In this document: positions 14,694-58,410 of the stretch, piece after piece
Position numbering within the stretch: position 1 is the first letter of the stretch
Layout: the number at the start of each line of letters is the position of its first letter
Origin: Luteimonas sp. JM171
Lineage (GTDB): Bacteria > Pseudomonadota > Gammaproteobacteria > Xanthomonadales > Xanthomonadaceae
NCBI RefSeq assembly: GCF_001717465.1
Contig: NZ_CP017074.1
Coordinates: forward strand, 615,162-679,161
DNA: 64,000 nt
Direction: 5' to 3'
Program-made: the position numbers and the translations under genes
Notes under the pieces: model-generated
The model's database searches: none
What the model saw: only the letters and a program-made list of their open reading frames with translations
What the model was told of the DNA's origin: nothing

Positions 14694-14719
14694 AACCCCG
14701 CGGATTTGCGGGGTTTTTT
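14694..14719 (+). terminator. Rho-independent terminator of tRNA-Met
   Basis: An 8-bp stem (AACCCCGC/GCGGGGTT) with a 6-base loop is followed by a run of T, 17 bases after the tRNA. From here to 14876 I see no gene. Confidence 0.9.
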
Positions 14720-14876
14720 GTGCCTCCGCCCCGCCCCCCCCGATCCCCTGCGCCCACGGGGACCGATGTTTCGGACCCTCTGTGACACATTCTGTGACAG
14801 TCTCATGTGTCACAGATGCGGCGAGGATCGCGAAAACGACCCCAGCACGCCGAAGGGGCGGCAGATCATTGCGCTA

Positions 14877-17990: not shown

Positions 17991-18165
17991 TCCCTCCCCT
18001 TCGGATCCGCATGGACGCGAGACTGTTCGCCTTGCGACCAAGCGTTACGCAACCCCTGCGGTCCGCTGCGACTTATAGCCGGTTCCGGCTATAGATAACT
18101 ATAAATCCATATTTTCACATGCGCTCAGTCGCGGCATCCCGGGCTAGTGCGGCCACCGCACCAGC

Positions 18166-37955: not shown

Positions 37956-39707
37956 ATGTACTTGGCAACACTGAGTATTGCAAACTTCCGAAAGCTCAAG
38001 GAAGTCCAGATCCAGTTTCAGCCTGGACTGAACATCATTGTGGGTGCCAACAACGTCGGCAAGACCGCCGTCGTCGATGCGCTGCGTGCGTTGCTTGCCG
38101 GCCACGACGAGCCGCCGCCGCGACTGGACACTGACGACTTGCACCGCCCAAAGGAAGGGGATCCTGCCGGCGACATCACATTCCATTACGTGTTCCGGGA
38201 CCTCGCCCCGGACGACGAAGCAGACTTTCTGGCTGCGCTGAAGCCCGACGAAAACGGAAACCTGGAAGCGCACGTCTATGTTCGCTATTCCAATGCAGAT
38301 GCCAGTGGGCGCCTTCGCATCAAGCGCTGGTGCGGCGAACACGAAGACGTCGGCCTGACCTCCGACATGCTGGAGAACCTGCGGGGTGTCTATCTGCAGC
38401 CGCTCCGGGATGCCGCGCAGAGCCTTCGGCCGGGCCGCGCGAGCCAACTGTCGCGACTTCTGCGGATGCTGGCCGACGATGCCGGTCGCGAGGGCATCAA
38501 TCAGGCGTTGAGCGAACTCGACCAGAACCTGAGGGCACACGCACCGATCGTCAATACGCAGAACGCCATCACCACCCGCCATGCGTCCATGCTGGGCGAG
38601 CAGTTGGCGCAAGCGCTGGAAGTAGGGCTGAGCGCGAGCGATTTCCAGCGGCTGTCCTCCCGGCTCTCGCTCCTCGTTGACAACTTCGAGATAGAGCAGA
38701 ACGGGTTGGGTTTCAACAACATGATCTTCATGGCAGTCGTGCTCAGCGAACTCGTCAAAAATGCCGAGGCGAGCTATCGGGGTCTGGTCATCGAAGAGCC
38801 AGAAGCCCATCTGCATCCTCAACTCCAATCCATCCTGTTGCGCTATCTGGAAAGCATCCACGCCCACGAGGGAGAAAAGCCGGTCCAGCTTTTCGTCACC
38901 AGCCATTCCCCGAACTTCGCCAGCATCGCGGACTTGAATTGTCTGACCTGCCTGGTGGACACCGGTGCGGCCGTAGAGACGTTCTTCCCCAGGACCGTCG
39001 AGTTTGCCGCCGGCAAGCGCGAAAAACTCGAGCGCTATCTGGACGTCACTCGCGCGGAGTTGTTCTTCGCCCGCCGCGTCATCTTCGTGGAAGGCGCAGC
39101 CGAACTTATGCTAATGAACGTACTCGCGGCCCGGGCAGGTTTCGACCTGCGTCAGCACGCGGTGAGCCTGATCAGCGTGGAAGGGCTGAACTTCGACTCC
39201 TTCCTGCCGCTGTTCGGCGAAGGCGCACTGAAGATCCCCGTCGCATTGATTACCGACGCCGACCCGGCGCAGGAACAGGACGGCAACGGTATTCCGCAGG
39301 CGCTATACCCGGCGTTAGGAGATGTCGTAGCGGTATCCGCCAATACCGCGAAGATGAAGGAGAGGGAAGACGCCTTCGTCAAGGTCTTCCACGGGTTGAA
39401 GACGCTGGAGTATGACTTCGCCCTACACGCCGACAATCGCACGGCGATGCTCGCGGCACTGAAGGAGCTGCATCCCAAGATCGGGGAAGCGGTGCAAGCG
39501 GCAGTGGAGGCAGCAGATGGAGACGCAGCCAAGGCCAAGGCCCTGTTCACCGGCATGTTCGAGCGCCCGCAAGGAAACATTCAGAAAGGCAAATTCGGCC
39601 AAGCACTCGCGCAGATCCTGGCCGACCCGGAAACGCAGTGCGTCGTACCCGCATACATCGGTGACGCAATGGCACATGCATGCCAGTGCGAGGTGCCCGC
39701 CGAATGA
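37956..39707 (+). CDS. gajA: Gabija GajA-like OLD-family nuclease
   Basis: 583-aa protein, close to typical GajA (about 578). The N-terminal ABC-type ATPase has Walker A GANNVGKTAVVDALR (around residue 32), a signature/Walker B region VIEEPEAHLHPQLQS (around 275) and TSHSPNF. The C-terminal TOPRIM domain has RRVIFVEGAAELM and VALITDADPAQE. Class 2 OLD nucleases of this type work with a UvrD-like helicase, which follows with a 4-base overlap. By family, Gabija protects against phages by sensing nucleotide levels and cutting DNA. Confidence 0.9.
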   Translation: MYLATLSIANFRKLKEVQIQFQPGLNIIVGANNVGKTAVVDALRALLAGHDEPPPRLDTDDLHRPKEGDPAGDITFHYVFRDLAPDDEADFLAALKPDENGNLEAHVYVRYSNADASGRLRIKRWCGEHEDVGLTSDMLENLRGVYLQPLRDAAQSLRPGRASQLSRLLRMLADDAGREGINQALSELDQNLRAHAPIVNTQNAITTRHASMLGEQLAQALEVGLSASDFQRLSSRLSLLVDNFEIEQNGLGFNNMIFMAVVLSELVKNAEASYRGLVIEEPEAHLHPQLQSILLRYLESIHAHEGEKPVQLFVTSHSPNFASIADLNCLTCLVDTGAAVETFFPRTVEFAAGKREKLERYLDVTRAELFFARRVIFVEGAAELMLMNVLAARAGFDLRQHAVSLISVEGLNFDSFLPLFGEGALKIPVALITDADPAQEQDGNGIPQALYPALGDVVAVSANTAKMKEREDAFVKVFHGLKTLEYDFALHADNRTAMLAALKELHPKIGEAVQAAVEAADGDAAKAKALFTGMFERPQGNIQKGKFGQALAQILADPETQCVVPAYIGDAMAHACQCEVPAE

Positions 39708-41431
39708 CGGCCCTGTCCGACGAGCAGCGCGCGGTCGTCGATGCGCCAACCGGCCCGCTGTCGGTGATCGCATGCGCCGGCAGCGGCAAAACTCGGACGG
39801 CCGTGCACAGGCTGGTCGAAATGCGGCGGCGCCTTGGGAAACAACGGGGGCGTGTCGCGCTGCTTTCTTTCTCCAACGTCGCCGTTGACACTTTTCGCGA
39901 CAACTATCGACACTTGGCCCAAACCCTACCAGCCACTTCGGGAAGGGATAGGGTCGACATCGACACGCTGGATGCGTTCATCACGACCCACGTCATCAGG
40001 CCGCACGCGCATCGAACGATGGGTGCACAGCAGACCGCCTACCTGGTCGCTGGAAGCGAGCCATTTCTCGCTGGCTTCACGTTCATGACACCGCAGCGGT
40101 TTCCCTTGAGCATCACGAAGATGCGCGTTGGATTCCGTAATGGCGACTTCCATTTCTTCCATAACGTCCACAGTCAGAGCGTGGATCTGAGTAGTGCGGC
40201 AGCCCTGAATCTCATCGCCCGCCTCGGTAGGACCGGCGCATACACGCATGACCTCGGTCGATACTGGTGCCACCGCGCCTTACGCGAGCAGCCAGCCATT
40301 CTCCGGGCACTGGTTCGCCGCTATCCGCATGTCCTGATCGACGAATCGCAAGACATCGGTCCTTGCCACCAGGCCATCCTCGATCTGCTTGCAGATGCGG
40401 GGATGGAGATTTCCTTGATTGGCGACCCCAACCAGGGCATCTACGAGTTTTCCGGGGCGGACGGCAGGTTCCTGACCGAATACGGAAACCGCGCAGGCGT
40501 CCGTTCGTTCTCGCTCACCAAGAACTATCGCTCGGTTCCCGCGATTCTCTCCTTAGCCAACCAGCTCTCGAATCGCAACGACACGCACGACAGGGACGCG
40601 CCCGATACGGTGCATGGCGCCTTCTTTGCCTCCTATCGCACCAATGATCGGAATCACCTGATCGAAACCTTCGAGGCGACCGTAGCCGCAGCGGGGCTTG
40701 ACCCCGGTCGCTGCGCCATCCTTTGTCGTGCGGCGAAGTTGACGAATGAGCTGTCCGGCGCGGATACGCCCGTCGGGCGTGGCCTCGTCAAGGAGTTCGC
40801 GCTGGCCTCGATCCTTCGGGACAAGCGTCGTGACTACAAGCGCTCCTTCGAGGTGCTCGCCCGATGCGTCGTCAGCCTGCTGGACGATCCAGCGGAAAAC
40901 CTGCTCGCAGAGCTCCTGAGTCCGGCTAGATATTCCGAGATGCGGCTCCTGCGACGCCGCCTGTGGCAGTTTGTCCGCGATCCGGTCACCGGGCTGCCTC
41001 CATCCACGTTGCTCGCCGACACTGAGTGGCTTCCCCTTCTACTTGACCGCGTGCGTCAGTTGCTGGCCGCCCTCCAAGCCGATTTTGGGCTGGCTCCCGT
41101 CGATCGCTTGGGGAACAAGCTGACACGACGCGATCTGCCGCATGCTTCGCTAGTGGCCGCTGACGACCTCGGCACTCAGCGCAATACCCGGATCCGGGTT
41201 GACACCGTACACAAGGCAAAAGGGGAAAGCCTTGACGCCGTGCTTTACATGGCGACGAGGGAACACATCGAAGCGATGCTGGACGGTGTTGCGACTGAAG
41301 TCGGCCGTATTGGCTATGTCGCCGCTACGCGCGCCAGAAATTTGTTCTGGCTCGGCGTCCCCATGTCAGCATTTCCGGCTCTTCGCCAGCGCTTGCTTGA
41401 CGCGGGGTTTCGCGAAGTTGGCACGGCTTGA
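39704..41431 (+). CDS. gajB: Gabija GajB-like UvrD-family helicase
   Basis: 575-aa SF1A helicase. Motifs: Q-motif LSDEQRAVV, Walker A ACAGSGKTRTAV (about residue 27), motif Ia LLSFSNVAV, Walker B LIDESQDIGP, motif III GDPNQGIYEFSGA, motif IV TKNYRS, and VDTVHKAKGESLD with AATRARNLFW near the C-terminus. The start is at 39704, overlapping the gajA stop by 4 bases (ATGA). The size is larger than many GajB (about 490 aa), but the gene pair and order fit Gabija. Confidence 0.9.
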   Translation: MTALSDEQRAVVDAPTGPLSVIACAGSGKTRTAVHRLVEMRRRLGKQRGRVALLSFSNVAVDTFRDNYRHLAQTLPATSGRDRVDIDTLDAFITTHVIRPHAHRTMGAQQTAYLVAGSEPFLAGFTFMTPQRFPLSITKMRVGFRNGDFHFFHNVHSQSVDLSSAAALNLIARLGRTGAYTHDLGRYWCHRALREQPAILRALVRRYPHVLIDESQDIGPCHQAILDLLADAGMEISLIGDPNQGIYEFSGADGRFLTEYGNRAGVRSFSLTKNYRSVPAILSLANQLSNRNDTHDRDAPDTVHGAFFASYRTNDRNHLIETFEATVAAAGLDPGRCAILCRAAKLTNELSGADTPVGRGLVKEFALASILRDKRRDYKRSFEVLARCVVSLLDDPAENLLAELLSPARYSEMRLLRRRLWQFVRDPVTGLPPSTLLADTEWLPLLLDRVRQLLAALQADFGLAPVDRLGNKLTRRDLPHASLVAADDLGTQRNTRIRVDTVHKAKGESLDAVLYMATREHIEAMLDGVATEVGRIGYVAATRARNLFWLGVPMSAFPALRQRLLDAGFREVGTA

Positions 41432-41927: not shown

Positions 41928-43103
41928 ATGACCCAGCCCACTTCATACGCCCCGCCCTCAGCACTTTTGTTGGAACTACTGGCTGAAGCCGGGCTCGCGA
42001 TCCGCGGGCGCACCGCCGCATCTGCATTCCAGGACTCGACGAAACTGAGCCACATGACCTTTCGTCGGCACGGCGCAATGGCTTTCGTTAAGCACGCAGA
42101 TGCAATCCAGGCCTACCAGCGTAAGGAGTGGCTCCCCGAGCAGATGCGCGCGTGGGGCGCATCCGAGACCAAAATCGCCGAGACTCTCTCTACCCTCCAC
42201 ATCTCAGGCGCCGCCGCCTTCACAGTCTTCGGGATGGGATTTCGAACGCCAGACGTATCGGACCAGCTCGTCGAGACCGCTGCGCGTCTCGACCAAGCCG
42301 ATGCAAGGGTGTTGAGGTTGTTCGGCACTGGCGACATTGCGGGATGCCTAGCCGAATTAGGCCCTGGCTCACTATTGGGACCTGAGTACTGCCAGCCGTT
42401 GGATGTAGCCGGGATCGGCCCACTCTCTGGGCCTCTCCCAGCGGACGGTGAAGGTCTGGTTGACTGGGTGCGCGTACGACGAGCGCACATGGCGCTTTCT
42501 TTGCTTGCCGCAATCGACCACGAAATGAGCTTGTGGCGCGAGCGGCAGGTTGGCGACGACGAGTGGAAAGGGGTGCCACGTTTTGCGGCGCTGCTCCTTG
42601 ATCCCAGCAGCCGCACCCTGCAACGCCAGCGGCCGGACGATCCGATCGCACGCCTGGTCGACCTCGTCGGGGCACAGGCAGCTTACTTTGAGAGCGGACG
42701 CTGGCCAGAAGGGCCACCCTCACTTGGTGAGATGGGCCGGCGGGTGGATAGCTCTGCTACTGTCGACATCGTGGGCGAGGTTTTCATCAAGAAGCTTCGA
42801 AACAGCAACTTACGGATGACGGGTCGCAACTTCAGGACGCTAGTCGTTTCGCAGTTCAAAGGCGGCAGCAAGCCGGTCCCTTTCGATCCATTGGCCATGG
42901 CGAGCATGCTTTCCCCCTATCTTTTCACCGCTCATCTCTTGACCAAGCTAATCCCGAGCGATCCACGTGGTCGTCGTCTTAACCGTGCCGGATGGCGTTC
43001 GGCTTATCTGGCTTGGTGGCGCCGGCATGCGCTTGCGCTCGACCGCCCAACCGAACGCTTGAACGATACGGTTCCTCTGTGGCTGACCGGGCCCGTTGGC
43101 TGA
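41928..43103 (+). CDS. Unknown 391-aa protein
   Basis: 391-aa soluble, Arg-rich protein with a DEMSLWRERQVG-like helical middle and a C-terminal segment FDPLAMASMLSPYLFTAHLL. It has no known domain that I recognise, no signal peptide and no clear membrane span. It begins MTQPTSYAPPSALLLELLAE. It lies between the small Gly/Ser-rich protein and the DUF3800 gene. The three could be parts of one locus, but strands differ (minus, plus, minus). Confidence 0.65.
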   Translation: MTQPTSYAPPSALLLELLAEAGLAIRGRTAASAFQDSTKLSHMTFRRHGAMAFVKHADAIQAYQRKEWLPEQMRAWGASETKIAETLSTLHISGAAAFTVFGMGFRTPDVSDQLVETAARLDQADARVLRLFGTGDIAGCLAELGPGSLLGPEYCQPLDVAGIGPLSGPLPADGEGLVDWVRVRRAHMALSLLAAIDHEMSLWRERQVGDDEWKGVPRFAALLLDPSSRTLQRQRPDDPIARLVDLVGAQAAYFESGRWPEGPPSLGEMGRRVDSSATVDIVGEVFIKKLRNSNLRMTGRNFRTLVVSQFKGGSKPVPFDPLAMASMLSPYLFTAHLLTKLIPSDPRGRRLNRAGWRSAYLAWWRRHALALDRPTERLNDTVPLWLTGPVG

Positions 43104-43157: not shown

Positions 43158-44300
43158 TTAGGGGATCGTCTCCACACCCTTCGCCATGCCGCTGATCCGA
43201 CGCTCCTCTTGCATCGCCATCATCGCCTGACCCCGTTCCACCTCTTCAGCGGTAAAAGTCCGTTCCTGCAGTGACTTGAAGAAGGGTTCCCAGCGCTCCT
43301 CAATCTTCCTCAAGGAGAGCTCGTCGTACTGGCCACGCCGCATCAGCCTGCGCATGAGAGCGCTGATCGCGGGGTCATGCGCGCAATCCTTGATGCGCTT
43401 GAACATCCACAGAATGAGATCAACGAGTTCCAAGCCTGCCGAGCTTCCGCTCGATTTAAAGGTCGGTCCTTGCGTTGGCATGCCCCTCAGGTCAAGTTCC
43501 GGCAAGCCTGGCCCGAGCGGAAAAACCTGCCCAGTGGCCTTTGCGTAGAAGTCAGCAAGCTCGGACTGAGCGCCGTTGAACTGCTGCTGCTGATCCACAC
43601 AAAGACATTGCAGATTTGTCCTCGCAGATTTCAATCTGCTCACAACCCCGAAGAGCACGAACTGGAACCCGATGAGATTGGGCGATATCGCCAGCTGCAT
43701 GTCTTTTCGGTTGGCGTTGTACTCGATCTCTGATGTGTTGGCGATCGCCCAGTTCAACGTGTCAATGATGAGCTCTCGTGATCGTTGATCGGGCAGTCTC
43801 CCCACTCGACCGAGCAGAGCGGTGCAGACCTCACGAAGCTGACTCTCAGATTTCGCTCCCTGCTTCTCTGTGCGTGCAGCCCAAGCCAGTTGTGTGAGAT
43901 CGTCATCGAACAGATGGGCAACCTTGAGGAGCATCACGTATCGAAGTGGGGTCCAGTAGGTCGTCCAACCTACTGCGGGGTTCAGCCCCTGGTCGAACAC
44001 TTGATCGAAGAACTGGATGACAGCGTAGTCAGCCTTGACCAGCCTGTAGAGGCTGAATCTTATGTCGTACCTGTCCACCAGCCCCAGTAAGGTGGGCGCG
44101 GTCGACGAGATTGGGCCGATCCCGAGGTCATTGGCGTGGAGACGCTCCACGCCCAAGCGCTGACGAAGCACTCGCATGTACGGTTCGGCAAGGACATCCA
44201 GATTCACTTTGCTCGATAGCATTCCGTAGAAGAGATCCGGCTGCGTTCGATCGAACAGGTTGAGGCCGGTGTGGCCACTTTCGTCCACGTAGAAGAACAT
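43158..44300 (-). CDS. DUF3800 family protein
   Basis: 380-aa protein beginning MFFYVDESGHTGLNLFDRT; the DESGHTG motif at the N-terminus is the mark of DUF3800, a predicted RNase H-like fold. An acidic residue cluster later (VDLILWMFKRIKDCAHDP) could complete the site. Such proteins occur with defence and mobile genes, but function is unproven. The start at 44300 is the only ATG in frame with this motif. Confidence 0.85.
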   Translation of the reverse strand: MFFYVDESGHTGLNLFDRTQPDLFYGMLSSKVNLDVLAEPYMRVLRQRLGVERLHANDLGIGPISSTAPTLLGLVDRYDIRFSLYRLVKADYAVIQFFDQVFDQGLNPAVGWTTYWTPLRYVMLLKVAHLFDDDLTQLAWAARTEKQGAKSESQLREVCTALLGRVGRLPDQRSRELIIDTLNWAIANTSEIEYNANRKDMQLAISPNLIGFQFVLFGVVSRLKSARTNLQCLCVDQQQQFNGAQSELADFYAKATGQVFPLGPGLPELDLRGMPTQGPTFKSSGSSAGLELVDLILWMFKRIKDCAHDPAISALMRRLMRRGQYDELSLRKIEERWEPFFKSLQERTFTAEEVERGQAMMAMQEERRISGMAKGVETIP

Positions 44301-44701: not shown

Positions 44702-46642
44702 ATGGTCGGAGGACCACCCATCAACCAAGCCCTTTTCGAAGAGGATTACGTCATACGGACGCTCGGACGAATCGGTTACGACCCCGACGTGGCTCTGACA
44801 GAACTGATCGCGAATGCGTGGGATGCAGGCGCCAGCCGGGTCGATGTGATCATTCCACCGGAATCGGGGGGGCTTCTGTCGGTCGAGGACGACGGCCACG
44901 GCATGACCGAAGAACAGTTTCGCCGTCGCTGGATGACGCTGGGCTACAACCGACAGAAAACCCAGGGTGAGAACGTCCAGTTTCCTCCCGAGCGTGCCGA
45001 CTGGGTCCGAAAGGCTTTCGGACGGAATGGCGTCGGACGGCACGGCTTACTGTGTTTTTCGGATCAGTACACGGTCGATACCTGGGTCGGCGGTGGCCTG
45101 TCAAAGTTCGTCATTGGCACACGCAATGATGCGTCGCCTTTCTATATCAAGAGTCATGAACCAGGCAAGCGGAACGGGCATGGCACGCGATTGGTTGTCC
45201 GGGCCGACCGGCACCGTCCTGACGCGGACCGTGTCCGCACCGTCCTGGCCGGTCGCTTCCTCCACGACCCGCAGTTCGTGGTGTCGGTCAATGGCGCCTC
45301 CGTCCCGTTGTCGGAGCACGAAGGGCTTCTGGAGGAACGCACAATCGAGGTGGATCCAGGATCGATCGTCACGGCCTACGTCGTCGACACCACTCGCACG
45401 GCCAAGTCCACTCGCTATCAGGGCGTGGCGCTGTGGGTCAGCAATCGGCTTGTTGGCCTGCCGAGCTGGACGATCGGATCGACTGCGATCTTGGACGGTC
45501 GCATCCGGTTTGCCAAGCGCTATGCGATTGTCTTTCAGTGCGGCGGTGAGTGGGTGTCGGAAGTCGAACCGGACTGGTCGAAGTTCAAGACGACCGAGCG
45601 TACGGAGCGCCTCTTCGCCTCCGTAAACGCGTACGCGCAGGAAATGGTGGAGAAGCTGTCCGCCACCCTGATAGAGGAGAGTTCCGAGGACGCGCTTTAC
45701 AAGAACCGTGAAGAATTTCGCAACCTGTCGCCACGTTCGATGCTTGAGGTTGCCCAGTTTACAAAGACGGTCGTGCATGACCAGCCCGGCATGCCACCCG
45801 AAACCCTGCAAAGGGTCGTAAAAGCGATCATCCAGATCCAGAATGCGAAGAGCGGCGTAAGCTTTCTCGATAAGCTCATGGCCCTTGATGAGCAGGACAT
45901 TGAAGGGCTGGACCGACTACTCGAACAGTGGACGGTCGAGGACGCTCTCACTGTGCTCGACGAAATCGACGGCCGCCTATCGATCGTGGCGGCAATGGAA
46001 AAGCTGAGCGGTGATCCAGACGCAGACGAATTACATACGCTGCATCCGCTGGTGACGCAGGCGCGGTGGTTGTTCGGCCCGGAATTCGATAGCTCCGAGT
46101 ACGCATCCAACAACACGCTGAAAACGGTTGCCACTTCGCTTTTTAAAGCACGAAAGGGCGACCAGACGTTTGCCAATGCAGCGAAGCGACCGGACATCGT
46201 AGTGCTGTCAGACGCGACGCTCTCGGTGGTGGGGACGGAAGGATACGACAGCACCTATTTGACTACGATGCGCAACGTCCTTTTAATCGAACTGAAGAAA
46301 GGCCGATCGACCATCGGTCGGCAGGAGATGTTCCAGGCGGCCGGGTACATCGACGAGCTCGTACTTGGCGGCGGCATTGAAGGCACGCCGTACTTTCACG
46401 CATTCGTCGTGGGGCACTCGATCGCTGGCAACACTTCAACCGAAGACACGAAGATTTATAACGGTGTCGAGCGGGGCCGCGTTAAGGTGACAACGTACAA
46501 CCAGCTTGCGCTGACGGCCAATCGCCGTCTGCACGGCCTCAAGGCGAGGATCCCGTCGCGTTACGAAGAGGTGTCAGGCTACGACTTGGTGCAGAAAGTG
46601 ATGGAAATCCCGAGCCAAGCGCCACTTGTAAACGGAGCATAG
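44702..46642 (+). CDS. GHKL (Hsp90/MORC-like) ATPase fused to PD-(D/E)XK-like nuclease
   Basis: 646-aa protein. The N-terminal Bergerat ATP site is clear: N-box ALTELIANAWDAGA, G1 VEDDGHGMTE, G2 FGRNGVGRHGLL. A middle S5-like/helical region follows. In the C-terminal third, RPDIVVLSD, then LLIELKKGRS, then QEMFQAAGYIDEL form the D, ExK and Q pattern of a PD-(D/E)XK nuclease. This combination recalls the MORC/MutL-like ATPases linked to restriction systems. The start is uncertain: 44702 has an ACAGG site; 44663 and TTG 44633 are possible. It is flanked by related intergenic motifs. Confidence 0.78.
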   Translation: MVGGPPINQALFEEDYVIRTLGRIGYDPDVALTELIANAWDAGASRVDVIIPPESGGLLSVEDDGHGMTEEQFRRRWMTLGYNRQKTQGENVQFPPERADWVRKAFGRNGVGRHGLLCFSDQYTVDTWVGGGLSKFVIGTRNDASPFYIKSHEPGKRNGHGTRLVVRADRHRPDADRVRTVLAGRFLHDPQFVVSVNGASVPLSEHEGLLEERTIEVDPGSIVTAYVVDTTRTAKSTRYQGVALWVSNRLVGLPSWTIGSTAILDGRIRFAKRYAIVFQCGGEWVSEVEPDWSKFKTTERTERLFASVNAYAQEMVEKLSATLIEESSEDALYKNREEFRNLSPRSMLEVAQFTKTVVHDQPGMPPETLQRVVKAIIQIQNAKSGVSFLDKLMALDEQDIEGLDRLLEQWTVEDALTVLDEIDGRLSIVAAMEKLSGDPDADELHTLHPLVTQARWLFGPEFDSSEYASNNTLKTVATSLFKARKGDQTFANAAKRPDIVVLSDATLSVVGTEGYDSTYLTTMRNVLLIELKKGRSTIGRQEMFQAAGYIDELVLGGGIEGTPYFHAFVVGHSIAGNTSTEDTKIYNGVERGRVKVTTYNQLALTANRRLHGLKARIPSRYEEVSGYDLVQKVMEIPSQAPLVNGA

Positions 46643-46854: not shown

Positions 46855-47349
46855 CTAGTCAGCACCACCGGAAGGTGGTTGCAGCCACGGGCTCCGCATC
46901 TCTGCGAGGAATCGGCGGCTTGGATACATGATCGACGCCGGCAGGCTTGTCCCGGATAGCCCCGGCAGGACCTGCACCAGTCGCCCTTCCGCTAGGTGCT
47001 CTTCGACCAGGATGCCGGGTACCTGCGCGAGTCCCATGCCGGCGAGAGCGCAGTCGACCAGAGTGCCGGCGTCGTTGACGCGAATGGCACCGGCGAGACG
47101 GACTGCACGATCGCCGTCATCGTCGGCGATCGACCAGTCCATGGGGCGGTGCCCCCTGCCGAAGAAATAGTTGATTGCCTCGTGGTCCGCGAGGTCCGCG
47201 AGACTGGTGGGCGTCCCCCCGGCTGCCAGATAACCCGGTGACGCGCAGATGACCATTGTGAGCCGAACGAGCGTCCTGGCGATCATGCTGTTTTCCGCAA
47301 GCTTGCCGATGCGCAGAACGCAATCCAGCGCGTCCGCTACTAGGTCAAT
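46855..47349 (-). pseudogene. LysR-type regulator, 3' part, interrupted by IS21-family element
   Basis: Reads DLVADALDCVLRIGKLAENS through a LysR substrate-binding domain to LQPPSGGAD. It continues exactly from the fragment at 49305–49382 (…LVLGVSDQPID) once the IS between them is removed, giving SDQPID-LVADALDCV. The helix-turn-helix part is missing because the 5' end is cut by the IS3-family element. Confidence 0.85.
47344..47349. repeat. Target-site duplication, left (GTCAAT)
   Basis: GTCAAT directly precedes the IS21-family left end; an identical copy follows the right end at 49299–49304. The duplication lies in the LysR gene and shows a single simple insertion. Confidence 0.85.
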
Positions 47350-47438
47350 TGTCACCGCCGACGTAAAACTGACCCACCCGCGCCGATGTAAAACTGACCC
47401 ACCCGGGCGAGGATGGCGGTCTTTTGGAGGCCGCCTGG

Positions 47439-49225
<1,787 letters not shown>

Positions 49226-49298
49226 ACGGGCCTGGGTGGGTCAGATTTCAATCGGCGATAACGGGCCAAAGTGGGTCAGAATTCAATCGGCGTTGACA

Positions 49299-49304
49299 GT
49301 CAAT
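49299..49304. repeat. Target-site duplication, right (GTCAAT)
   Basis: Identical to the left copy at 47344–47349. Confidence 0.85.
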
Positions 49305-49382
49305 GGGCTGGTCGCTCACACCCAGCACTAGGTCGACATCCGGATAGGCGCGGCGGAAGCCCGGCAATGCCGGAACAAGGAG
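49305..49382 (-). pseudogene. LysR-type regulator, middle fragment between two ISs
   Basis: Reads LLVPALPGFRRAYPDVDLVL then GVSDQPI, the start of a LysR effector-binding domain. It joins the fragment at 46855–47349. The upstream part is cut off at 49383 by the IS3-family element. Confidence 0.85.
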
Positions 49383-49445
49383 TGAATCGCCCCGTGTTTC
49401 GTAGACACCTTGCAGCCATAATCCACGGCAGCAGCAGGAGTGTCC

Positions 49446-49721
49446 ATGAGCAAGCGATACACGGAAGAGTTCAAAGTTGAGGCGGTCAAGCAGGTCACGG
49501 ATCGTGGCCACTCGGTAGCGGACGTCGCCGCCCGGCTGGGCGTATCGATCCACAGCCTGTACACGTGGCGGAAGCAGTACGGTATGTCGCCGCCGGCGCG
49601 GGCAGCAGCGGCTGACCAGGCGGAAGAGATGCGTCGGCTCAAGTCGGAGCTTCGTCGGGTGACGGAGGAGCGCGACATTCTAAAAAAAGCCGCGGCGTAC
49701 TTTGCAAAGCAGTCCGGGTGA
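49446..49721 (+). CDS. IS3-family transposase OrfA
   Basis: 91-aa protein with an N-terminal helix-turn-helix (YTEEFKVEAVKQV, then SVADVAARLGVSIHSLYTWR) and a C-terminal leucine-zipper-like coil (EEMRRLKSELRRVTEERDIL). AGGAG lies 6 bases upstream of the ATG. An A7G run (49682–49689) near the end is a typical -1 slip site giving OrfAB. Confidence 0.93.
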   Translation: MSKRYTEEFKVEAVKQVTDRGHSVADVAARLGVSIHSLYTWRKQYGMSPPARAAAADQAEEMRRLKSELRRVTEERDILKKAAAYFAKQSG

Positions 49722-50578
49722 AGTACGCCTTCATGCGCAACCATGAGCAGGAGTTCCGGGTGCGCAGCATGTGCCGCGTGCTGGGCGCGCACCCCAGCGG
49801 CTACTACGCATGGCGTCGTGAGCCATTGTCGGCACGGGCCAGGGACGATCGTCGCGTGCTGGGCCTGATCAAGCAGTCGTGGCTGGAGAGTGGCAGCGTG
49901 TACGGCTACCGCAAGGTCACGCGGGACCTGCGCGATCTCGGCGAGCGCTGCGGCAAGCACCGGGTTGCGCGGCTGATGCGTGGCGAAGGCTTGCGAGCAC
50001 AGGTCGGCTATCGCCGTCGTCCTGGCATGCGCGGGGGCAAGCCAGCCGTCGTCGCCGACAACCATCTGGCGCGGCAGTTCGATCCGGATGCGGCGAACCG
50101 CGCCTGGGTCACCGACATCACCTACATCCGCACGCACGAAGGCTGGCTGTACTTGGCAGCGGTGATGGACCTGTTCTCGCGCAAGATCGTCGGTTGGGCC
50201 ATGGGGCCAACCATGCACACCGACCTCGTATTGCAGGCGTTGATGATGGCCGTGTGGCGGCGCAAGCCGCCGGCTGGGTTGCTGGTGCATTCGGACCAGG
50301 GAACGCAGTACACCGGGCACGACTGGCAGGACTTCCTGAAGGCGCACGGCCTGGTCAGCAGCATGAGCCGGCGCGGCAACTGTCACGACAACGCCGTCGC
50401 CGAGAGCTTCTTCCAGCTCCTCAAGCGCGAGCGCATCAGGCGCCGGATCTACACGACTCGCGACGACGCCAGGTCCGATGTCTTCAACTACATCGAGATG
50501 TTCTACAACACCCGCCGGCAGCACAGCCACAACGATGGGCTGCCTCCGGTAGAGTTCGAAAAGCGACAATCAATTTGA
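49718..50578 (+). CDS. IS3-family transposase OrfB (DDE integrase core)
   Basis: 286-aa rve-type integrase core. The catalytic triad is visible: D in NRAWVTDITYIRT, D in LLVHSDQGTQYT, and E in NCHDNAVAESFFQLLK. The HTH_21 region SVYGYRKVTRDLRDLG and the tail NTRRQHSHNDGLPPVEF are typical. It lies in the -1 frame relative to orfA; a GTG overlaps the orfA stop. Probably made as an OrfAB fusion via the A7G site. Confidence 0.93.
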   Translation: MKYAFMRNHEQEFRVRSMCRVLGAHPSGYYAWRREPLSARARDDRRVLGLIKQSWLESGSVYGYRKVTRDLRDLGERCGKHRVARLMRGEGLRAQVGYRRRPGMRGGKPAVVADNHLARQFDPDAANRAWVTDITYIRTHEGWLYLAAVMDLFSRKIVGWAMGPTMHTDLVLQALMMAVWRRKPPAGLLVHSDQGTQYTGHDWQDFLKAHGLVSSMSRRGNCHDNAVAESFFQLLKRERIRRRIYTTRDDARSDVFNYIEMFYNTRRQHSHNDGLPPVEFEKRQSI

Positions 50579-51185: not shown

Positions 51186-51407
51186 TTAGTCTTCAGCATA
51201 GTATTTCAAGCCAGATTCATGCACGTCGACAGAGCTTCCATCCTCGAATTCAACAGTGTAAATCTCGCCCGGCGGGAACTGCTCGTAATACGAACCACGC
51301 CTGCTCTCTGGGGATGTGATCCCTACTATCCACGCTTTCAACCCTAGCCTCGACTCGGGCAGCCCAGCAATGGCGCACACAATATCGTCAAAATCAAACT
51401 TGCTCAT
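51186..51407 (-). CDS. Putative immunity protein of the Rhs toxin
   Basis: 73-aa acidic protein (MSKFDFDDIVCAIAGLPESR, then PGEIYTVEFEDGSSVDVHES). Its ATG overlaps the stop of the Rhs toxin gene by one base. A small acidic gene directly after an Rhs C-terminus is the usual place of a cognate immunity gene. No family recognised, so the role is inferred from position. Confidence 0.7.
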   Translation of the reverse strand: MSKFDFDDIVCAIAGLPESRLGLKAWIVGITSPESRRGSYYEQFPPGEIYTVEFEDGSSVDVHESGLKYYAED

Positions 51408-52303
51408 TATCGCCCCCTTGTGGGATCTTCAGGCGGCGGCTTCGGTGGCTCGATTGGTAGGTGTGGATTGCCTGTTTCATCTGTGACTCCAGGCCTATGG
51501 CCATGAGGAGCTTGGGCTTTCGGATCAGAATGTGTTCTATGTCCGCCCTTGTCTAGCCTAACGCCGGTCGGTTGACCAGAACTATCTTTTACCTGTTGAT
51601 ACCGGCCGTCTGGCGAGGATGAAACTTGCTCACCCTCGCCAACCGGAATGGCATTTCCATCGCCATCCACAACGATTACTGGCTCACTTACCGGGCCGTC
51701 GTAGGGATTTGTGTTTCCCCCAGAAGATTCTGCTGAACTTGCCGATTCGTTGTAAGCGTTAAGCGCTTCACTGCCCGCATAGCCAGCTACAGCTGCGCTT
51801 CCCCACTGCACCACCTTCCGAGCTGCCGTAGCAACTGCTGCACGACATGCAGCATTCATCCCACATCGAACACCAAGTGCGATTGGGACCGCTATCGGAA
51901 CACGCCCGTCCGGGTCGGTGAATGCATACGGGTTGTTGTAGGCGTAAGCGTAGCGATTAAAGTGCCTGTAATCGCCGCCGTAAGCCGTCACCGGATCAAC
52001 GCTCAGGAACACTCCAAGCATCGGATCGTAATAGCGCTGCTGCATATACACCAGCCCAGTTGCAGCATCCTGCACATGCCCGGTGTACCCCGGTCCGTCC
52101 TGCACAGCTGGCGTCAGCTGCGCCCCATATGGCTCATACTCGCGCCGCTCCATGACGTTCCCGGATTCGTCGGTCACGACGACCACACTGCCCAGCGCAT
52201 CGGTGACGTAGTACCGCACCACGCTCTGCGCCTGCACCGGTTGCCACACCGCGCCGATGAAGCACGCCAGCAACCAGATCAACGCCCGTACCCAGCCGCT
52301 CAC
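51407..52303 (-). CDS. Short Rhs core–toxin protein with signal peptide
   Basis: 298-aa protein that starts with its own signal peptide (VRALIWLLACFIGAVWQPVQAQ). It continues with the end of the Rhs repeat region (YYVTDALGSVVVVTDESGNV, QRYYDPMLGVFLSVDPVTAY, NPYAFTDPDGR). A variable C-terminal domain follows from about residue 140, with a small hydrophobic stretch and ending SPDGRYQQVKDSSGQPTGVR then KAQAPHGHRPG. The latter is the likely toxin; I cannot name its activity. A GTG start overlaps the previous gene's stop by 4 bases. Normally this part is the end of a single Rhs protein. Confidence 0.82.
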   Translation of the reverse strand: MSGWVRALIWLLACFIGAVWQPVQAQSVVRYYVTDALGSVVVVTDESGNVMERREYEPYGAQLTPAVQDGPGYTGHVQDAATGLVYMQQRYYDPMLGVFLSVDPVTAYGGDYRHFNRYAYAYNNPYAFTDPDGRVPIAVPIALGVRCGMNAACRAAVATAARKVVQWGSAAVAGYAGSEALNAYNESASSAESSGGNTNPYDGPVSEPVIVVDGDGNAIPVGEGEQVSSSPDGRYQQVKDSSGQPTGVRLDKGGHRTHSDPKAQAPHGHRPGVTDETGNPHLPIEPPKPPPEDPTRGR

Positions 52304-55300
52304 TCCCCGTCTCCTTCAGTCATTGGGACGACGGGAGGACCACCCGGCCCCGGCGGCGGGTCTTCGGAGTACGTGGGAACCTTGGGCGGTGATGACCAGG
52401 CCGAACATCCCCCGCCGTTGCACGCACGCACGATGTACCTCGGGGCGCAGTACTGGATCGTGTACGGTGCCGATGACACCGAGGTCTCCGTCCCGGTGTA
52501 CAACAACGCGCCCCCGTCCGCCTGCAGCTGATAGCTGGTTGCACCTGTGGAGGACGTCCAGGTCACCTGACAGGACGTGAAGGTCCCACCCGCCGCGTAG
52601 TAGATGTGCTGGTGCGCATAGGTGATCGACGGCGTGGAAGGCGGACGCACCACTGATACCGTTTTCACTGCAGACCAGCTTCCGCAGCCGGCCGCATTGC
52701 AGCCCCGCACCCGGTAACCCCAGCTGCCCGTGGCCTGGCCGCTGACCGCCTTGCTGGTCGCGGAGGCGTCATGGATCTTGGCCCAGCTGCCGCTTCCCAG
52801 CCGCTCCTGCAACTCGTAGCGCGTGACCGGCGACACCGCGCTCCAGCTCACGGTGTAACTGCCGCTGTTGTTGCTGGTGGGCACCGTCAGCGCGGGCGCT
52901 GAAGTCGGCGGACGCGTGACCTGGGTGGTCTTGACCGCGGAGTAGCCGGCACAGCCGGCAACGTTGCATGCGCGTACCCGGTACCCCCAGGCTCCCGTGG
53001 TCTTGCCGCTGACGGCCTTGCTGGTGCCGGATGCATCGTGGATCGTGGTCCAGCTGCCGCTGCCGAGCCGCTCCTGGAGTACGTAGCGCGTGGCGGTGGC
53101 CACACTGGTCCAGCTGACGGTATAGGCCCCCGTGTAATTGCTGTTGGCGGCCGTCAACGCCGGGGCTGCAGTCGGGGGCAAAGTCACCACCGTTGTACCA
53201 GCGGCCGAGTAGCCCGAGCAACCTCCCGCGTTACACGCCCTCACCCGGTATTGCCAGCTGCCCGCAGCCTTGCCACTCACCGCCTTGTTCGTCTGTGAAC
53301 CGTTGTGGACCCCGCTCCAGCTGCCACTCCCCAGCCGCTCCTGCAGTTCATAACGGGTCGCGGCACTTACGCTGGTCCAACTGACGGTGTAACCCCCCGT
53401 GTAGCTGGTGGCCGGCACCGTCAACGTTGGCGCCGACGCTGGAGGCAGGGTCACCACTATCGTCCCGGTCGAGGAATAGGCCGAGCATCCACCGGCGTTG
53501 CAGGCCCGCACGCGGTAGTGCCAGCTTCCAGCCGTCTTGCCGGTGACCGCCTTGCTTGTCTGTGCGGCGTTGTGGATCCCGCTCCAGCTCCCGCTGCCCA
53601 GTCGCTCCTGAAGCTCATAGCGGGTCGCCGTGGCTGAGCTGGCCCAGCTCACGGTGTACGCGCCGGTGCTGCTGGTCGCCGGCACCGTTACCGACGGAGC
53701 CGAAGGGGGCAACGTCACCTGCGTGGCCGCCTGTGCGCTCCAGGTTCCGCATACATCGCCGTTGCAGGCGCGCACGCGGTAGCCCCACGCCCCCGTCCCC
53801 TTGCCGGTAATCGCTTTGCTGGTCTGGGCAGCATCGTGAACCAGACTCCAGCTGCCCGTGCCCAATCGCTCTTGCAGCTCGTAGCGGGTGGCCGTTGCTA
53901 CGCTCGTCCAACTCACAGTGAAGCTGCCGGTGCTGTTGCTCTCAGGCACCGTCAGCACTGGCAAGGCAGATGGCGGCAAAGTGACTTGAGTGGTGCGCAC
54001 AGCGGAATAGCCCCCACACCCGGCAGCGTTACAGGCGCGCACCCTGTAACCCCACGCGCCATTGGTCTTGGCGGTCAGCGCCTTGCTGGTCCCGGAAGCA
54101 TTGTGGATGCTCGTCCAGCTGCCACCGTTGACGCGCTCCTGCAGCTGATAAGTGGCCGCAGCCGTCACCGCACTCCAGCTGACTGTGTAGCTTCCGTTGC
54201 TGTTGGTGGCTGGCGCCGTCAGCGTTGGGGCCGATGTCGGCGGCAGCTCCACCGTAATGCTGGCGCTTGTGCTCCAACTACCGCAGCCCATGACATTGCA
54301 CGCCCGCACTCGGTACTGCCAACTGCCTGCCGCCTTACCAGTGACGGCGCGGCTGGTCCCTGCCGCATCGTGGATCGTGCTCCAGCTGCCCGTTCCCAGC
54401 CGTTCCTGCAGTTGATACTTGCTGGCCAGGGACACCGAGCTCCAGCTGACGGTGTAACCGCCTGTGTAACTGGTGGCCGGCACGGTCAACGAGGGCCGGG
54501 CCAAGGCGATCGGATCGTCCACGCCCGCCACCAGACTCCCGCCCAGGTGCACGTATTGGGTAGTCTTGCCGGTACGCTCATCGCGCTGAAAGCGCAGCGC
54601 ACCATCCTGCCCGTAGACCGAATAGATGCTGGCGCCACTGCGGATTGCCTGCACCCTGCGCCCGTGACCGTCATACAGGTAACTCTCGACTCCGTTTACC
54701 TCCCGAAGCCGGTTGCCATGGTCAAAGTCGTAGCCTTGGCCGTTCCGGCTGGCCAGATTTCCCTGCGCGTCGTAGGCAAGCGTAACTACAGTCGCCCCGC
54801 CTGATGTATTGGTCACCAGGCCAAGCCGGTTGCTGGCATCGTAGACATAGGTGTGGTTACGCACCTTGGTGCCGGCTGTCACCTGCACGGTTCTCAGGTT
54901 ATCCAGGACGTCGTAGGCGTAACTGGCCGTTCCAAACATCGGCGAGACAGTCCCGGTCAAGCGGTCCATGGCGTCATAGGTCATGGTTCTGTCGCCCCGG
55001 TTGCCCGTTACGCCATCGCTGATCGCCGCCACGTTCCCGTGCTGGTCATAGTCCAGCCCATCGTCGTGGATCGTGGCTCCACTACGCACGGTACGACTAC
55101 GATCCGGCAAGCCACGCGCGTTCTGGGTCAGGGTATGGACTTTCCCGCTGCCGTAGGTGAACTGCTTGATCGCCCCGTTCGGGAAATAGCTCACCCCGGT
55201 CGCATAGCTACCGGCCCTGGTCGCCTGGCCCAGTGCGTTGGGCGCATAGTCCACCGTCAGTCCGCCAGGCAATGCATGCGTGCTCAAGTGGCCGTTGGCA

Positions 55301-58300
55301 TTGTAGCCATACCCGATACCCCACTGATGAGGGCCGACAGCGACCGCCTCTCCGATCAGCAGGCGCCGCTTGTTGTAGGTATAGGCGGTACCCACGATAT
55401 CCACGCCGCCGTTGTCGGTCGTGATCTGGGCCAGCTGCCCATCCGGGTAATAGTCATAGGTGGTGTTGCCCAGGTTGTCCGGGAACACCAGCGACTGGAT
55501 GCGGTTGCGGGCGTCATAGCTGCGAACAGTGCGCTGGGCAACGGGAATATTGCTGGTGTTGCAGCTTGTCGTTCCGGTCTGGGTGGCACCCGCCTTGCTC
55601 CAGGCCAGGTTGCCGGCCCCATCGTAGGCCATGATCGTCGCCCCGGTTTCCGGTTCCACGCTCTTGCACAGCTGCTGATGGGCATCGTAGACGTAGCGGC
55701 GGGTCAGCGAGACGCTGCCGCTGCTGTTCCGTCGGGTCAGGGCAGTCGGCTTGCCGAAGGCATCACGTGCGATATCCGTGAACACCCCTGCCGGATGGGC
55801 AATGGTGACCGGGTAATCGGTTGTCGGCTCGTCCCAGGCCAGGTAGCCGGTGGTGGTCTGGTGGCCCTTGGGGCTGGTTACCCGGGTCTGGAAGCCAGAC
55901 AGGTACTGCGAGAGCGTCACCAGCACGCCCAGTTCGCTGTCCTGCCCCACCGAGATCGGCCGGCCCAGGGCGTCGTAGTCGGTCCAGGTTCCTGTGGCCG
56001 GCGTGCCGCTGCTGCTCGGGTAGGACGCGAAGATAACCCGGCCCGCGTGGTCGAAGGCCTGCTTTGTGAAGCGCTGTGTGGCACTGGCGTTTGCGGTGTC
56101 GTACTCGCGAACCAGTACCGGGCGCCAAAGTGCATCCAGGTAGGTCACCTTGCGACCGTTGCCGGTGGCCACGGTGTGCTGCCAGTGTCCGGCCGGGATG
56201 CCGTAGGCACTGCTGCCAGCCTTCGTAAGGGTGAAGGTGGTCGCGTTCCAGGCCACGCTGTCACCGGTCGGATAGCTGGTCTGGCTCAAACGCCCCATCG
56301 GGTCGTACTGGTAGTTGTGCTGGAAACCGTTCTCGTCGGTGACGCGGGTGATCCAGCCGGAATCGTTGACGACCGCTGATTGGGTGGCACCCGAGGGTGC
56401 CTCCGGCGTGGCCGGATACTTGATCGTCTGCGGGATGCCGCGCTTCCAGCTCGACAACGTGGTGAGGTTGTTATTGCCGTCCTTGACCGAGGCCACGGTG
56501 CCATTGCTGTTGTACGCCAGGGTCTGCACCGTCCTGCCGAACTGCTTGAACACCGTAGGCAGTGCACTGGCGTTATAGCTGGTCTCTGATGCGATGGTGC
56601 CGTTGACCGTGAGTCTGGATTGCTGGCCAAGCACCCAGCTGGACAGGTTGTCGTGATAGGCGGTGACTTCGGTCCTGCTCGGACTTCCGGGCAGCGTGCT
56701 TGACTTGGCAACGCTCAAAGGCCGGGCAAACACGTCAAAGGTGTTGCCTTGCCAGGAGAATTCTGTGCCCTGCTGCACAATCGTGCGCTGGCGCAGCGGC
56801 CGGATGTGCGTTCGCGAGCTGTCATTTCCGCCATACAGCGAGCCATAGCGATCCGGAAATGGCTGCGCTGCTGCCTCAGCTGCAGTCATATACACATGCG
56901 ATTCGTCACGCAGCACCTGTCCACCTGACGACCTGATCTGGCGCCCCAACAGCTTGCCCTCGTTCAAGCCGAAGACGATCCCATAGCTTTCACGCAGCTC
57001 GGTGCCGTCCGGCTGGGTCACAACGGTCGTACGCGTCTGGGGGCAGGAGCCGCAGGGCGGAGCCGTACCGTTCCAGAGCGGAATATTTCCCGTGCTACCG
57101 GCATAGCTCCAGGTCATCGGTGACGGGATAGCCGGACCGCTGATGACCTTGGAGACCAGGCTGTACTTGTCGAAATAATTGGGCGTGGCGAGGGTGTAGA
57201 TGTAGGGAGACGTTGGATCCCACGGATTGGATTCCCTGACACACTGGTTGAGCGGCACACCGCTTCGCCCGTGACGCTGATGTTTGAACAGGAAGCTGCC
57301 ACTCGCTCCCGCTGGATGGGTGATGGTGACGGTGAAATCCGCCTCGACCAAAGGTGCCCGCACAGCACAGGAAGGGCCCGGAGACTCGCCCCAGATAGGG
57401 TAGGCCAAGGTCATATCGTCGCTGTAGCTGAAGCTCCACTGCCTGCTATCCGGCTGGGTGACCTGCGACAGCTGACCGTTCTGGTACCCGTAGGTCCACT
57501 GCCGCCCGTGGGCGGTCGCCGTTGCCAGCCGACCGCTGGAATAGGTCAGGTCGATCTGCCGTCCGTCGTTGGCCTGGATCCGGGTGGGGTGACCCTTGTC
57601 GTTATAGGTGTACTTGACCCAGTTGCCGAACCGGTCCTCGACCCGGCTCGCCAGCAGGAAAACCTGTTGCCGGGGGCGTCCGGTACCGATTTCCGGATGG
57701 TCCGACCCCATCATCCCGCCGGACCGGATTGTTCCTACGTCGAACCGGTAGGTGACTCCCTGCGCCGTCGTCATCAGGAAACCCTCACCCGGGTAGCCGT
57801 ACGCCATCGGGACGCAGCTGAAGGTATCGAACTCCCGGGTGGTCCAGAGCCGGGTGGCGCCATCCGACGGGCGGTGGGACGCATCGGGATGCCCCATGAG
57901 GTCACGGCCACCGGCCCCCGGAATCACGACCGAGTAGCCTGACCAGATATCCTCGATCCGGTGCGGCGGATTTGTGTGGGGGTAGAAGTTGGTTGAACAG
58001 CGCGGCGTAGCCCCGGCTGCGGTGGAATTCCAGCCGTAGGCGGAATCGAACGTGCCGGTGATGTACGGCACCCCGATTTCCCAGTTGCCTACGCCTCCGA
58101 ACAGTTCCGGCCTGGCATTGAGCAGTTGGGGCAGCGGACGCACGTCGAGCTTGCGCCGCAGCTCTACCGGAAGCGCCGAATTTCCCGGCAGGCTGATATC
58201 AACATGCTCAAAGGAAGCTGACCGGTCATACAGATTGACCTGCTCACCGAACACGTCAGAGGTGAGCGGGGCAACCTGCTCCGCTGCGCGCAGCCGCTTG

Positions 58301-58410
58301 TCGTACTCCTGATAGGGCTGCATGAGATCCTGGGCGCCAGCAGTTCCAGCAGCCCACAGAATGGCAAGCCCAAACCCCCACGACCGCAGACGGCCGAATC
58401 GATCGAACAT
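52300..58410 (-). CDS. Large Rhs/YD-repeat protein with fibronectin-like repeats
   Basis: 2036-aa secreted protein. The signal peptide is GFGLAILWAAGTAGAQ. An N-terminal domain (about residues 30–270) precedes a long YD-repeat region (NYQYDPMGRLSQTSYPTGD, YDALGRPISVGQ, YDAMDRLTG, YDGHGRRVQAIRSG) up to about residue 1300. Seven fibronectin type III-like repeats of about 88 aa and one diverged repeat follow. It ends in a short Pro-rich tail with no toxin. The next gene, coupled by GTGA, supplies the Rhs core end and toxin. Upstream region 58411–58723 has no other gene I recognise and should hold its promoter. Confidence 0.9.
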   Translation of the reverse strand: MFDRFGRLRSWGFGLAILWAAGTAGAQDLMQPYQEYDKRLRAAEQVAPLTSDVFGEQVNLYDRSASFEHVDISLPGNSALPVELRRKLDVRPLPQLLNARPELFGGVGNWEIGVPYITGTFDSAYGWNSTAAGATPRCSTNFYPHTNPPHRIEDIWSGYSVVIPGAGGRDLMGHPDASHRPSDGATRLWTTREFDTFSCVPMAYGYPGEGFLMTTAQGVTYRFDVGTIRSGGMMGSDHPEIGTGRPRQQVFLLASRVEDRFGNWVKYTYNDKGHPTRIQANDGRQIDLTYSSGRLATATAHGRQWTYGYQNGQLSQVTQPDSRQWSFSYSDDMTLAYPIWGESPGPSCAVRAPLVEADFTVTITHPAGASGSFLFKHQRHGRSGVPLNQCVRESNPWDPTSPYIYTLATPNYFDKYSLVSKVISGPAIPSPMTWSYAGSTGNIPLWNGTAPPCGSCPQTRTTVVTQPDGTELRESYGIVFGLNEGKLLGRQIRSSGGQVLRDESHVYMTAAEAAAQPFPDRYGSLYGGNDSSRTHIRPLRQRTIVQQGTEFSWQGNTFDVFARPLSVAKSSTLPGSPSRTEVTAYHDNLSSWVLGQQSRLTVNGTIASETSYNASALPTVFKQFGRTVQTLAYNSNGTVASVKDGNNNLTTLSSWKRGIPQTIKYPATPEAPSGATQSAVVNDSGWITRVTDENGFQHNYQYDPMGRLSQTSYPTGDSVAWNATTFTLTKAGSSAYGIPAGHWQHTVATGNGRKVTYLDALWRPVLVREYDTANASATQRFTKQAFDHAGRVIFASYPSSSGTPATGTWTDYDALGRPISVGQDSELGVLVTLSQYLSGFQTRVTSPKGHQTTTGYLAWDEPTTDYPVTIAHPAGVFTDIARDAFGKPTALTRRNSSGSVSLTRRYVYDAHQQLCKSVEPETGATIMAYDGAGNLAWSKAGATQTGTTSCNTSNIPVAQRTVRSYDARNRIQSLVFPDNLGNTTYDYYPDGQLAQITTDNGGVDIVGTAYTYNKRRLLIGEAVAVGPHQWGIGYGYNANGHLSTHALPGGLTVDYAPNALGQATRAGSYATGVSYFPNGAIKQFTYGSGKVHTLTQNARGLPDRSRTVRSGATIHDDGLDYDQHGNVAAISDGVTGNRGDRTMTYDAMDRLTGTVSPMFGTASYAYDVLDNLRTVQVTAGTKVRNHTYVYDASNRLGLVTNTSGGATVVTLAYDAQGNLASRNGQGYDFDHGNRLREVNGVESYLYDGHGRRVQAIRSGASIYSVYGQDGALRFQRDERTGKTTQYVHLGGSLVAGVDDPIALARPSLTVPATSYTGGYTVSWSSVSLASKYQLQERLGTGSWSTIHDAAGTSRAVTGKAAGSWQYRVRACNVMGCGSWSTSASITVELPPTSAPTLTAPATNSNGSYTVSWSAVTAAATYQLQERVNGGSWTSIHNASGTSKALTAKTNGAWGYRVRACNAAGCGGYSAVRTTQVTLPPSALPVLTVPESNSTGSFTVSWTSVATATRYELQERLGTGSWSLVHDAAQTSKAITGKGTGAWGYRVRACNGDVCGTWSAQAATQVTLPPSAPSVTVPATSSTGAYTVSWASSATATRYELQERLGSGSWSGIHNAAQTSKAVTGKTAGSWHYRVRACNAGGCSAYSSTGTIVVTLPPASAPTLTVPATSYTGGYTVSWTSVSAATRYELQERLGSGSWSGVHNGSQTNKAVSGKAAGSWQYRVRACNAGGCSGYSAAGTTVVTLPPTAAPALTAANSNYTGAYTVSWTSVATATRYVLQERLGSGSWTTIHDASGTSKAVSGKTTGAWGYRVRACNVAGCAGYSAVKTTQVTRPPTSAPALTVPTSNNSGSYTVSWSAVSPVTRYELQERLGSGSWAKIHDASATSKAVSGQATGSWGYRVRGCNAAGCGSWSAVKTVSVVRPPSTPSITYAHQHIYYAAGGTFTSCQVTWTSSTGATSYQLQADGGALLYTGTETSVSSAPYTIQYCAPRYIVRACNGGGCSAWSSPPKVPTYSEDPPPGPGGPPVVPMTEGDGE
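52627..54500 (-). repeat. Tandem DNA repeats coding for FN3-like domains
   Basis: Seven tandem units of about 265 bases and one diverged unit. Each codes for a segment with TVSWxSV, YxLQERLGxGSW, GxWxYRVRACNxxGCGxxS and ends in VTLPP. The units are very similar in DNA sequence, so the number may vary by recombination. Boundaries are approximate. Confidence 0.8.

Follow-up and report, generated by a model that had tools for sequence, protein, structure and literature searches.

A GHKL ATPase-nuclease gene of Luteimonas sp. JM171 that probably encodes a stand-alone anti-phage restriction factor

Gene and domain layout

The window analysed here, a 64,000-nucleotide stretch of the Luteimonas sp. 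JM171 genome (contig NZ_CP017074.1, positions 615,162 to 679,161), carries among defence genes an intact gene for a protein in which a GHKL (Bergerat) ATPase with an S5/transducer module is joined through a helical linker to a predicted PD-(D/E)XK nuclease domain (Table 1). We consider it probable, at roughly three chances in four, that this protein is a stand-alone, ATP-gated anti-phage restriction factor of the paraMORC3/GHKL-Shedu architecture. Residues are numbered from the methionine of the ATG at 44702, a start with which the N-terminus of public cluster P0001 (646 residues; the representative of the window's own protein) agrees. The box names N-box, G1 and G2/lid are those that we take to apply to this protein.

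Table 1. Features of the ATPase-nuclease gene and its upstream neighbours, in window positions
Feature	Position	Strand	Size or basis
Whole gene: GHKL ATPase, S5, helical linker and PD-(D/E)XK nuclease (predicted)	44702..46642	+	646 aa, intact
GHKL (Bergerat) ATPase and S5/transducer module, about residues 1-298	44702..45595	+	Pfam match, fold matches
N-box with catalytic Glu, E34..N38-A42 (E-L-I-A-NAWDA)	44801..44827	+	conservation
G1 box, D63-M68 (DDGHGM)	44888..44905	+	conservation
G2/lid motif, G107-G115 (GRNGVGRHG)	45020..45046	+	conservation
S5 motif, G241-V251 (GVALWVSNRLV), near-match to MORC motif GhXhhpXXRhl	45422..45454	+	
Helical linker, about residues 299-436	45596..46009	+	AlphaFold2 model
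PD-(D/E)XK nuclease domain (predicted), about residues 437-615	46010..46546	+	
R496-P497-D498, active-site Asp (predicted)	46187..46195	+	conservation
E530-L531-K532, ExK of nuclease (predicted)	46289..46297	+	conservation
Q545...Y549 on helix after ExK	46334..46348	+	conservation; helix in AlphaFold2 model
GajA (Gabija), defence neighbour	37956..39707	+	PADLOC E 1.5e-293
GajB (Gabija), defence neighbour	39680..41431	+	PADLOC E 9.3e-258
DUF3800 gene, divergent, closest neighbour upstream, no operon partner	43158..44300	-	Pfam E 4.9e-5

In Pfam the protein matched HATPase_c_3 (expectation value (E) 1.5e-15, 57.9 bits, cut-off 25) and also HATPase_c; the C-terminal half had no Pfam match at E ≤ 1, and hence no nuclease domain by Pfam. 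The best NCBIfam match was to the BbrUII/HgiDII restriction enzymes (NF050001) and the PADLOC match was a partial one to a type II restriction endonuclease model (E 4.7e-13), both of them covering the ATPase part. Within the linker, residues 385-408 were poorly modelled by AlphaFold2.

Conservation of the two active sites

A protein search that scored 7999 proteins gave at least 2616 at E ≤ 1e-5, close and distant relatives together, which makes for a large wider family. In a scan of species genomes the best 80 of 103 relatives, which come from proteobacteria, Bacteroidetes, bacilli, clostridia, Acidobacteria, Planctomycetota and other groups, represent 79 distinct loci. At nine of these loci a stop or frameshift interrupts the match, which may reflect decay or assembly error. 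These nine and two loci at contig edges were left out of the family alignment (A3), whose 79 rows comprise the window protein, 68 loci and 10 public proteins, with pairwise identities of 34-100% (median 46%); locus L025 was left out of a further alignment (A8).

The preliminary description of this DNA had pointed to complete Bergerat motifs (NAWDA, DDGHGM and GRNGVGRHG) and to the D…ELK…Q residues of a C-terminal nuclease, and had named their conservation in homologues as a point to be checked. Both sets of residues were borne out across the family alignment. In the ATPase, E34, N38, D41, A42, D63, G65, G67, G107, G110, G112 and H114 are invariant in all 79 rows, while N109 is kept in 78, M68 in 63 and D64 in 60. 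R496, D498, E530, K532, Q545 and Y549 of the nuclease are likewise invariant (79/79), and position 461 is E in 74 rows and Q in five. Over the C-terminal domain (68 rows), 17 of 217 positions are invariant, D498, E530, K532 and Q545 among them.

Predicted fold

The N-terminal part of the predicted structure matched MORC2, MORC3, MutL and some Hsp90 chains, with matches extending to residue 320-321. With its N, G1 and G2 boxes, catalytic Glu and Asn, and GHKL and S5/transducer fold, the protein belongs to the GHKL superfamily. For the model of the nuclease domain, the top 13 structure matches ranked by Z score (8.8 to 6.3) are nucleases of the PD-(D/E)XK fold; EndoMS is present among the nuclease matches. 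A search of the predicted structure for this fold had been proposed in the preliminary description, and such structures do lead the Z-ranked list. No Mrr structure appears among the 50 Z-ranked matches listed, which does not exclude a likeness to Mrr. A D..ExK active site on what is modelled as a restriction-endonuclease core places the domain in the PD-(D/E)XK superfamily.

Relationship to restriction enzymes, MORC proteins and Shedu

Locus L105, which was reached through the Pfam family SduA_C, encodes a member of the BbrUII/HgiDII family (797 bits; its SduA_C match is weak at 24.5 bits, cut-off 27), and 29 rows of that family were aligned (A4). Profile-profile comparison of A3 with A4 indicated distant full-length homology (99.5%, E 2.7e-22, 531 columns), with the nuclease motif in register and the main active-site residues aligned. 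The nuclease parts alone gave E 1e-4 (57%), the middle linkers compared between the two families were not significantly similar (E 0.086), and four control comparisons of non-corresponding parts gave E 0.069-0.71.

This kinship, together with the methyltransferase genes that adjoin some relatives, is what would be expected if the protein were a sequence-specific type II restriction enzyme like HgiDII or BbrUII with its methyltransferase encoded elsewhere in the genome. We consider this very unlikely, as the window protein reaches 94.1 bits, in its ATPase part only, against the NF050001 cut-off of 550 bits, and a 100/100 branch of a 42-row tree separates 29 family rows from 8 BbrUII/HgiDII rows, placing the window clade outside the BbrUII/HgiDII clade. 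Moreover, window scans with partial coverage of the open reading frames (ORFs) found no methyltransferase adjoining the gene, the only one detected being HsdM, 17.7 kb away. The tree rows were 29 of the 79 in A3, 8 of the 29 in A4 and five others, and the tool warned of long branches meeting. L092, L107 and L108 form the nearest other branch, whose split from the family is supported by only 91/90.

Across branches, a 16-row alignment has E34, N38, D63, G67, D498, K532, Q545 and Y549 identical throughout, and E461 deviates in seven of the nine rows outside the clade. Alignment identity is 28% over 629 columns for L092 and 26% over 491 columns for L093; the SduA_C scores of L093 and L094 are 21.6 and 27.0 bits (cut-off 27). 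The sister-branch protein at L092:1390-3327 (-) has the nuclease motif D-L-K rather than E-L-K, with D at the position of E530.

A motif in S5, GhXhhpXXRhl, is described as uniting prokaryotic and eukaryotic MORCs and as missing from paraMORCs (Iyer, Abhiman and Aravind 2008, PMC2292703; this paper and PMC12137116 are cited here from part of their text). The window row fits this motif only if the polar position is freed; the strict form is present in 12 of the 79 A3 rows and the freed form in 76, and neither form occurs in any of the 29 BbrUII/HgiDII rows. Among 5000 shuffles of the window protein, 44 carried the strict motif and 108 the freed one. The pattern hints that the clade may be MORC-like in its ATPase, with a paraMORC3-like nuclease. 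As for the MORC ATPases, a group of eukaryotic (MORC2, MORC3 and MORC4) and prokaryotic proteins, similarity to MORC chains over the whole profile is weak (E 0.29-0.3), and eukaryotic MORCs are not known to carry a nuclease domain within the chain.

The described architecture of paraMORC3, an N-terminal GHKL and S5 module with a C-terminal restriction-endonuclease fold bearing E-D-ExK, is found in the window protein as compared with that description rather than with member sequences, E461 being Q in 5 of 79 rows; the near-match to the MORC S5 motif may set the window clade apart from paraMORCs as described there (PMC2292703). In the same source a subset of paraMORC3 proteins is stand-alone, and the family is common in proteobacteria and bacteroidetes with a sporadic distribution.

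The second likeness is to VcSduA of Shedu type I-D (PMC12137116, 2025), in which a GHKL ATPase and a PD-(D/E)xK nuclease also share a single chain. VcSduA is reported to confer protection from Drexlerviridae phages on E. coli, and from phage X29 on V. cholerae strains that lack ddmABC. Its activity is lost in the E27A and K557A mutants, so that both the ATPase and the nuclease are needed; its growth curves are compatible with direct restriction, and its dimer model places the ATPase beneath a clamp-like middle domain. By motif, E27 and K557 appear to be the counterparts of E34 and K532, at a spacing of 530 residues in VcSduA versus 498 in the window protein. VcSduA is reported with DUF4263 (SduA_C), whereas this domain (PF14082) matched neither the window at E 1 nor any of the 68 C-terminal domains of the clade at E 0.1. 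Canonical Shedu SduA differs further in that L100 shows only SduA_C, without a GHKL ATPase.

Proposed function and mechanism

What the analysis shows is the domain anatomy, two invariant active sites, the fold as predicted, a kinship with restriction enzymes over the full length and a position in a defence-gene region; the reading as a stand-alone restriction factor builds on these. An ATPase and a nuclease in one chain had been likened in the preliminary description to MORC/MutL-like restriction factors and taken as a possible one-protein defence effector, and the evidence supports this; the defence activity itself we infer.

By this mechanism, ATP binding would bring the GHKL-S5 modules at the N-termini of two subunits together as a clamp that encloses DNA, much as happens in MutL, Hsp90 and MORC. 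In its closed state, and with hydrolysis by E34, the clamp would license the tethered PD-(D/E)XK domains (D498, E530, K532 and Q545), and this nuclease pair would nick or cut the clamped DNA in a presumably metal-dependent reaction. ATP hydrolysis would lead to release after cleavage, invading phage DNA would be degraded and the cell would survive. By analogy, E34 and K532 would act as E27 and K557 do in VcSduA. Because the scans revealed no methyltransferase next to the gene, the cues separating self from non-self are likely to be either a structural feature of DNA (its ends, or its state of replication or topology) or modifications set by other, resident restriction-modification (R-M) systems.

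Several results limit this interpretation. When the C-terminal 217 residues were shuffled 2000 times, a loose D..[DE]xK..Q pattern arose in 479 of the shuffles, and the D..ELK..Q pattern was for this reason rejected as evidence by itself; since the pattern alone is weak evidence, what counts is its conservation. For the nuclease model, Foldseek reached only E 6.3e-3, with nothing at E ≤ 0.001 and unrelated folds mixed in from rank 8, and the 50 matches listed include neither Shedu nor FokI. Profile similarity of the nuclease domain to canonical Shedu is not significant (E 0.056). The identical test of A4 against canonical Shedu also failed (E 0.089) despite the SduA_C score of L105, and the test is therefore insensitive.

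Neighbours and distribution of relatives

Neighbours of at least 150 residues were analysed around the 79 loci. At E 1e-5 every Pfam family occurs in at most 3 of 75 upstream and 3 of 70 downstream neighbours, a count in which weakly scoring families such as hsdS are underrepresented, and a general operon partner was rejected. Restriction, GmrSD, Mrr, MmeI, methyltransferase, OLD/AAA_15 and mobile-element genes were seen near relatives, a descriptive record made without a control set. When neighbours within 8 kb were clustered by blastp, the most frequent cluster was HsdM-like (12 of 79 loci). Gabija as a general pairing was also rejected, since GajA and GajB of the window have matches at 1e-10 only at L022.

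At seven loci the nearest ATG falls within the last few codons of the preceding gene, giving an overlap of 8 nucleotides. That preceding gene is hsdS in L036, L046, L048, L050 and L083 (L046 by Pfam/PADLOC, the others by blastp to L046; the L036 relative is itself broken) and a GmrSD gene in L040 (by Pfam) and L041 (by 97% identity). Methyltransferase genes lie directly upstream in L043, L044 and L069, and an ATPase-UvrD pair neighbours L107. These arrangements, the HsdM-like cluster and the Gabija genes adjoining both the window gene and L022 would suit a plug-in effector, that is, an ATP-gated nuclease serving an adjoining DNA-sensing system (type I R-M, GmrSD, MmeI or Gabija) and having little activity alone. 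We regard such dependence as unlikely, given that no partner is general, that the 1.5 kb upstream of the window gene hold no gene on its strand and that VcSduA acts by itself (PMC12137116). A DUF1016/YhcG PDDEXK nuclease gene was seen at L083:5664-6836, directly upstream of the overlapped hsdS-like gene.

Of the 36 genomes of the same genus that were searched, one has a full-length relative. A phage home was rejected, as 50,697 phage records held no match; four relatives are among viral contigs, and 18 plasmid records carry distant relatives (best identity 31.6%). Such a distribution bears on the proposal of a MutL-like DNA repair nuclease for chromosome maintenance rather than defence, to which the MutL-type ATPase fold and the EndoMS match lend themselves, mismatch repair having been raised for versions outside R-M contexts (Iyer 2008, in the part of PMC2292703 cited). 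Patchy occurrence within the genus, distant relatives on plasmids, a place among defence genes and the stops or frameshifts in nine loci, some perhaps assembly errors, make a repair role extremely improbable.

The architecture is already known, and the clade is without a specific model in the copies of Pfam, NCBIfam and PADLOC searched; surveys built on these may therefore miss it. The literature found on GHKL-nuclease chains, judged mostly from titles and abstracts, was PMC2292703 and PMC12137116, in which the clade itself is untreated as far as the cited parts go; Gu et al. 2025 (Shedu sensor domains) may cover it. It is possible, and we suggest it only tentatively, that the clade is an unnamed defence family combining a MORC-type GHKL-S5 ATPase (with a near-canonical MORC arginine motif) and a Shedu-like nuclease, needing no cognate methyltransferase and able to couple by the same 8-nucleotide overlap to DNA-sensing systems unrelated to each other (type I R-M and GmrSD). 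If so, the effector would be portable and licensed by ATP, and bacteria would have a relative whose MORC clamp works on a nuclease directly. GHKL-nuclease fusions may be the link, by way of a single clamp mechanism, between the restriction of phages, repair by MutL and silencing by eukaryotic MORCs; VcSduA is the only such fusion for which we found published anti-phage data, and in a single-chain protein clamp-gated cleavage could be directly measurable.

Genomic surroundings in the window

The DUF3800 neighbour is divergent, and the window gene therefore has its own upstream region. A variable region begins at a tRNA-Met gene ending at 14677, because the best match to 13700-14700 stops at 14677-14679 in 12 of 22 same-genus genomes, and the next 2 kb (14678-16678) have a match of at least 700 bases in only 2 of the 22, plus another place in the own genome. 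GC content is 0.68-0.73 across 1-14 kb, 0.57-0.68 across 14-46 kb and 0.59 at the gene. The defence-gene region (14601-46642) holds HsdR, HsdS, HsdM, McrC with an AAA_5 McrB-like gene, an integrase, an AAA_16 ATPase, TPR-HEPN and PIN genes and the Gabija pair (37956-41431). About 11 kb past the window end, G000:C1:690579-692387 repeats part of the hsdR gene (14877-18041) at 86% identity, and G000:C1:689020-689170 is a 78% copy of the stretch directly after the tRNA; perhaps the island is duplicated or composite.

A 391-residue protein encoded 3' of gajB (41928-43103) has no match in Pfam (E 1) or in NCBIfam or PADLOC (E 0.01), and is possibly the product of an unrecognised defence gene. Neither it nor the DUF3800 protein has a blastp match at 1e-10 among the neighbour ORFs of the 79 loci. 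Downstream, in 46855-50578, a LysR-type regulator gene (pieces at 46855-47355 (-) and within 49248-49553 (-)) is seemingly split by an IS21-like insertion sequence (47424-49225) with an IS3-like element adjoining; these were named by eye, and the only Pfam match there is for the transposase at 47424-48284 (rve). Further on, 51407-58410 holds a YD-repeat gene of 2036 residues, with an adjoining separate ORF of 298 residues that has a sub-cut-off RHS match.
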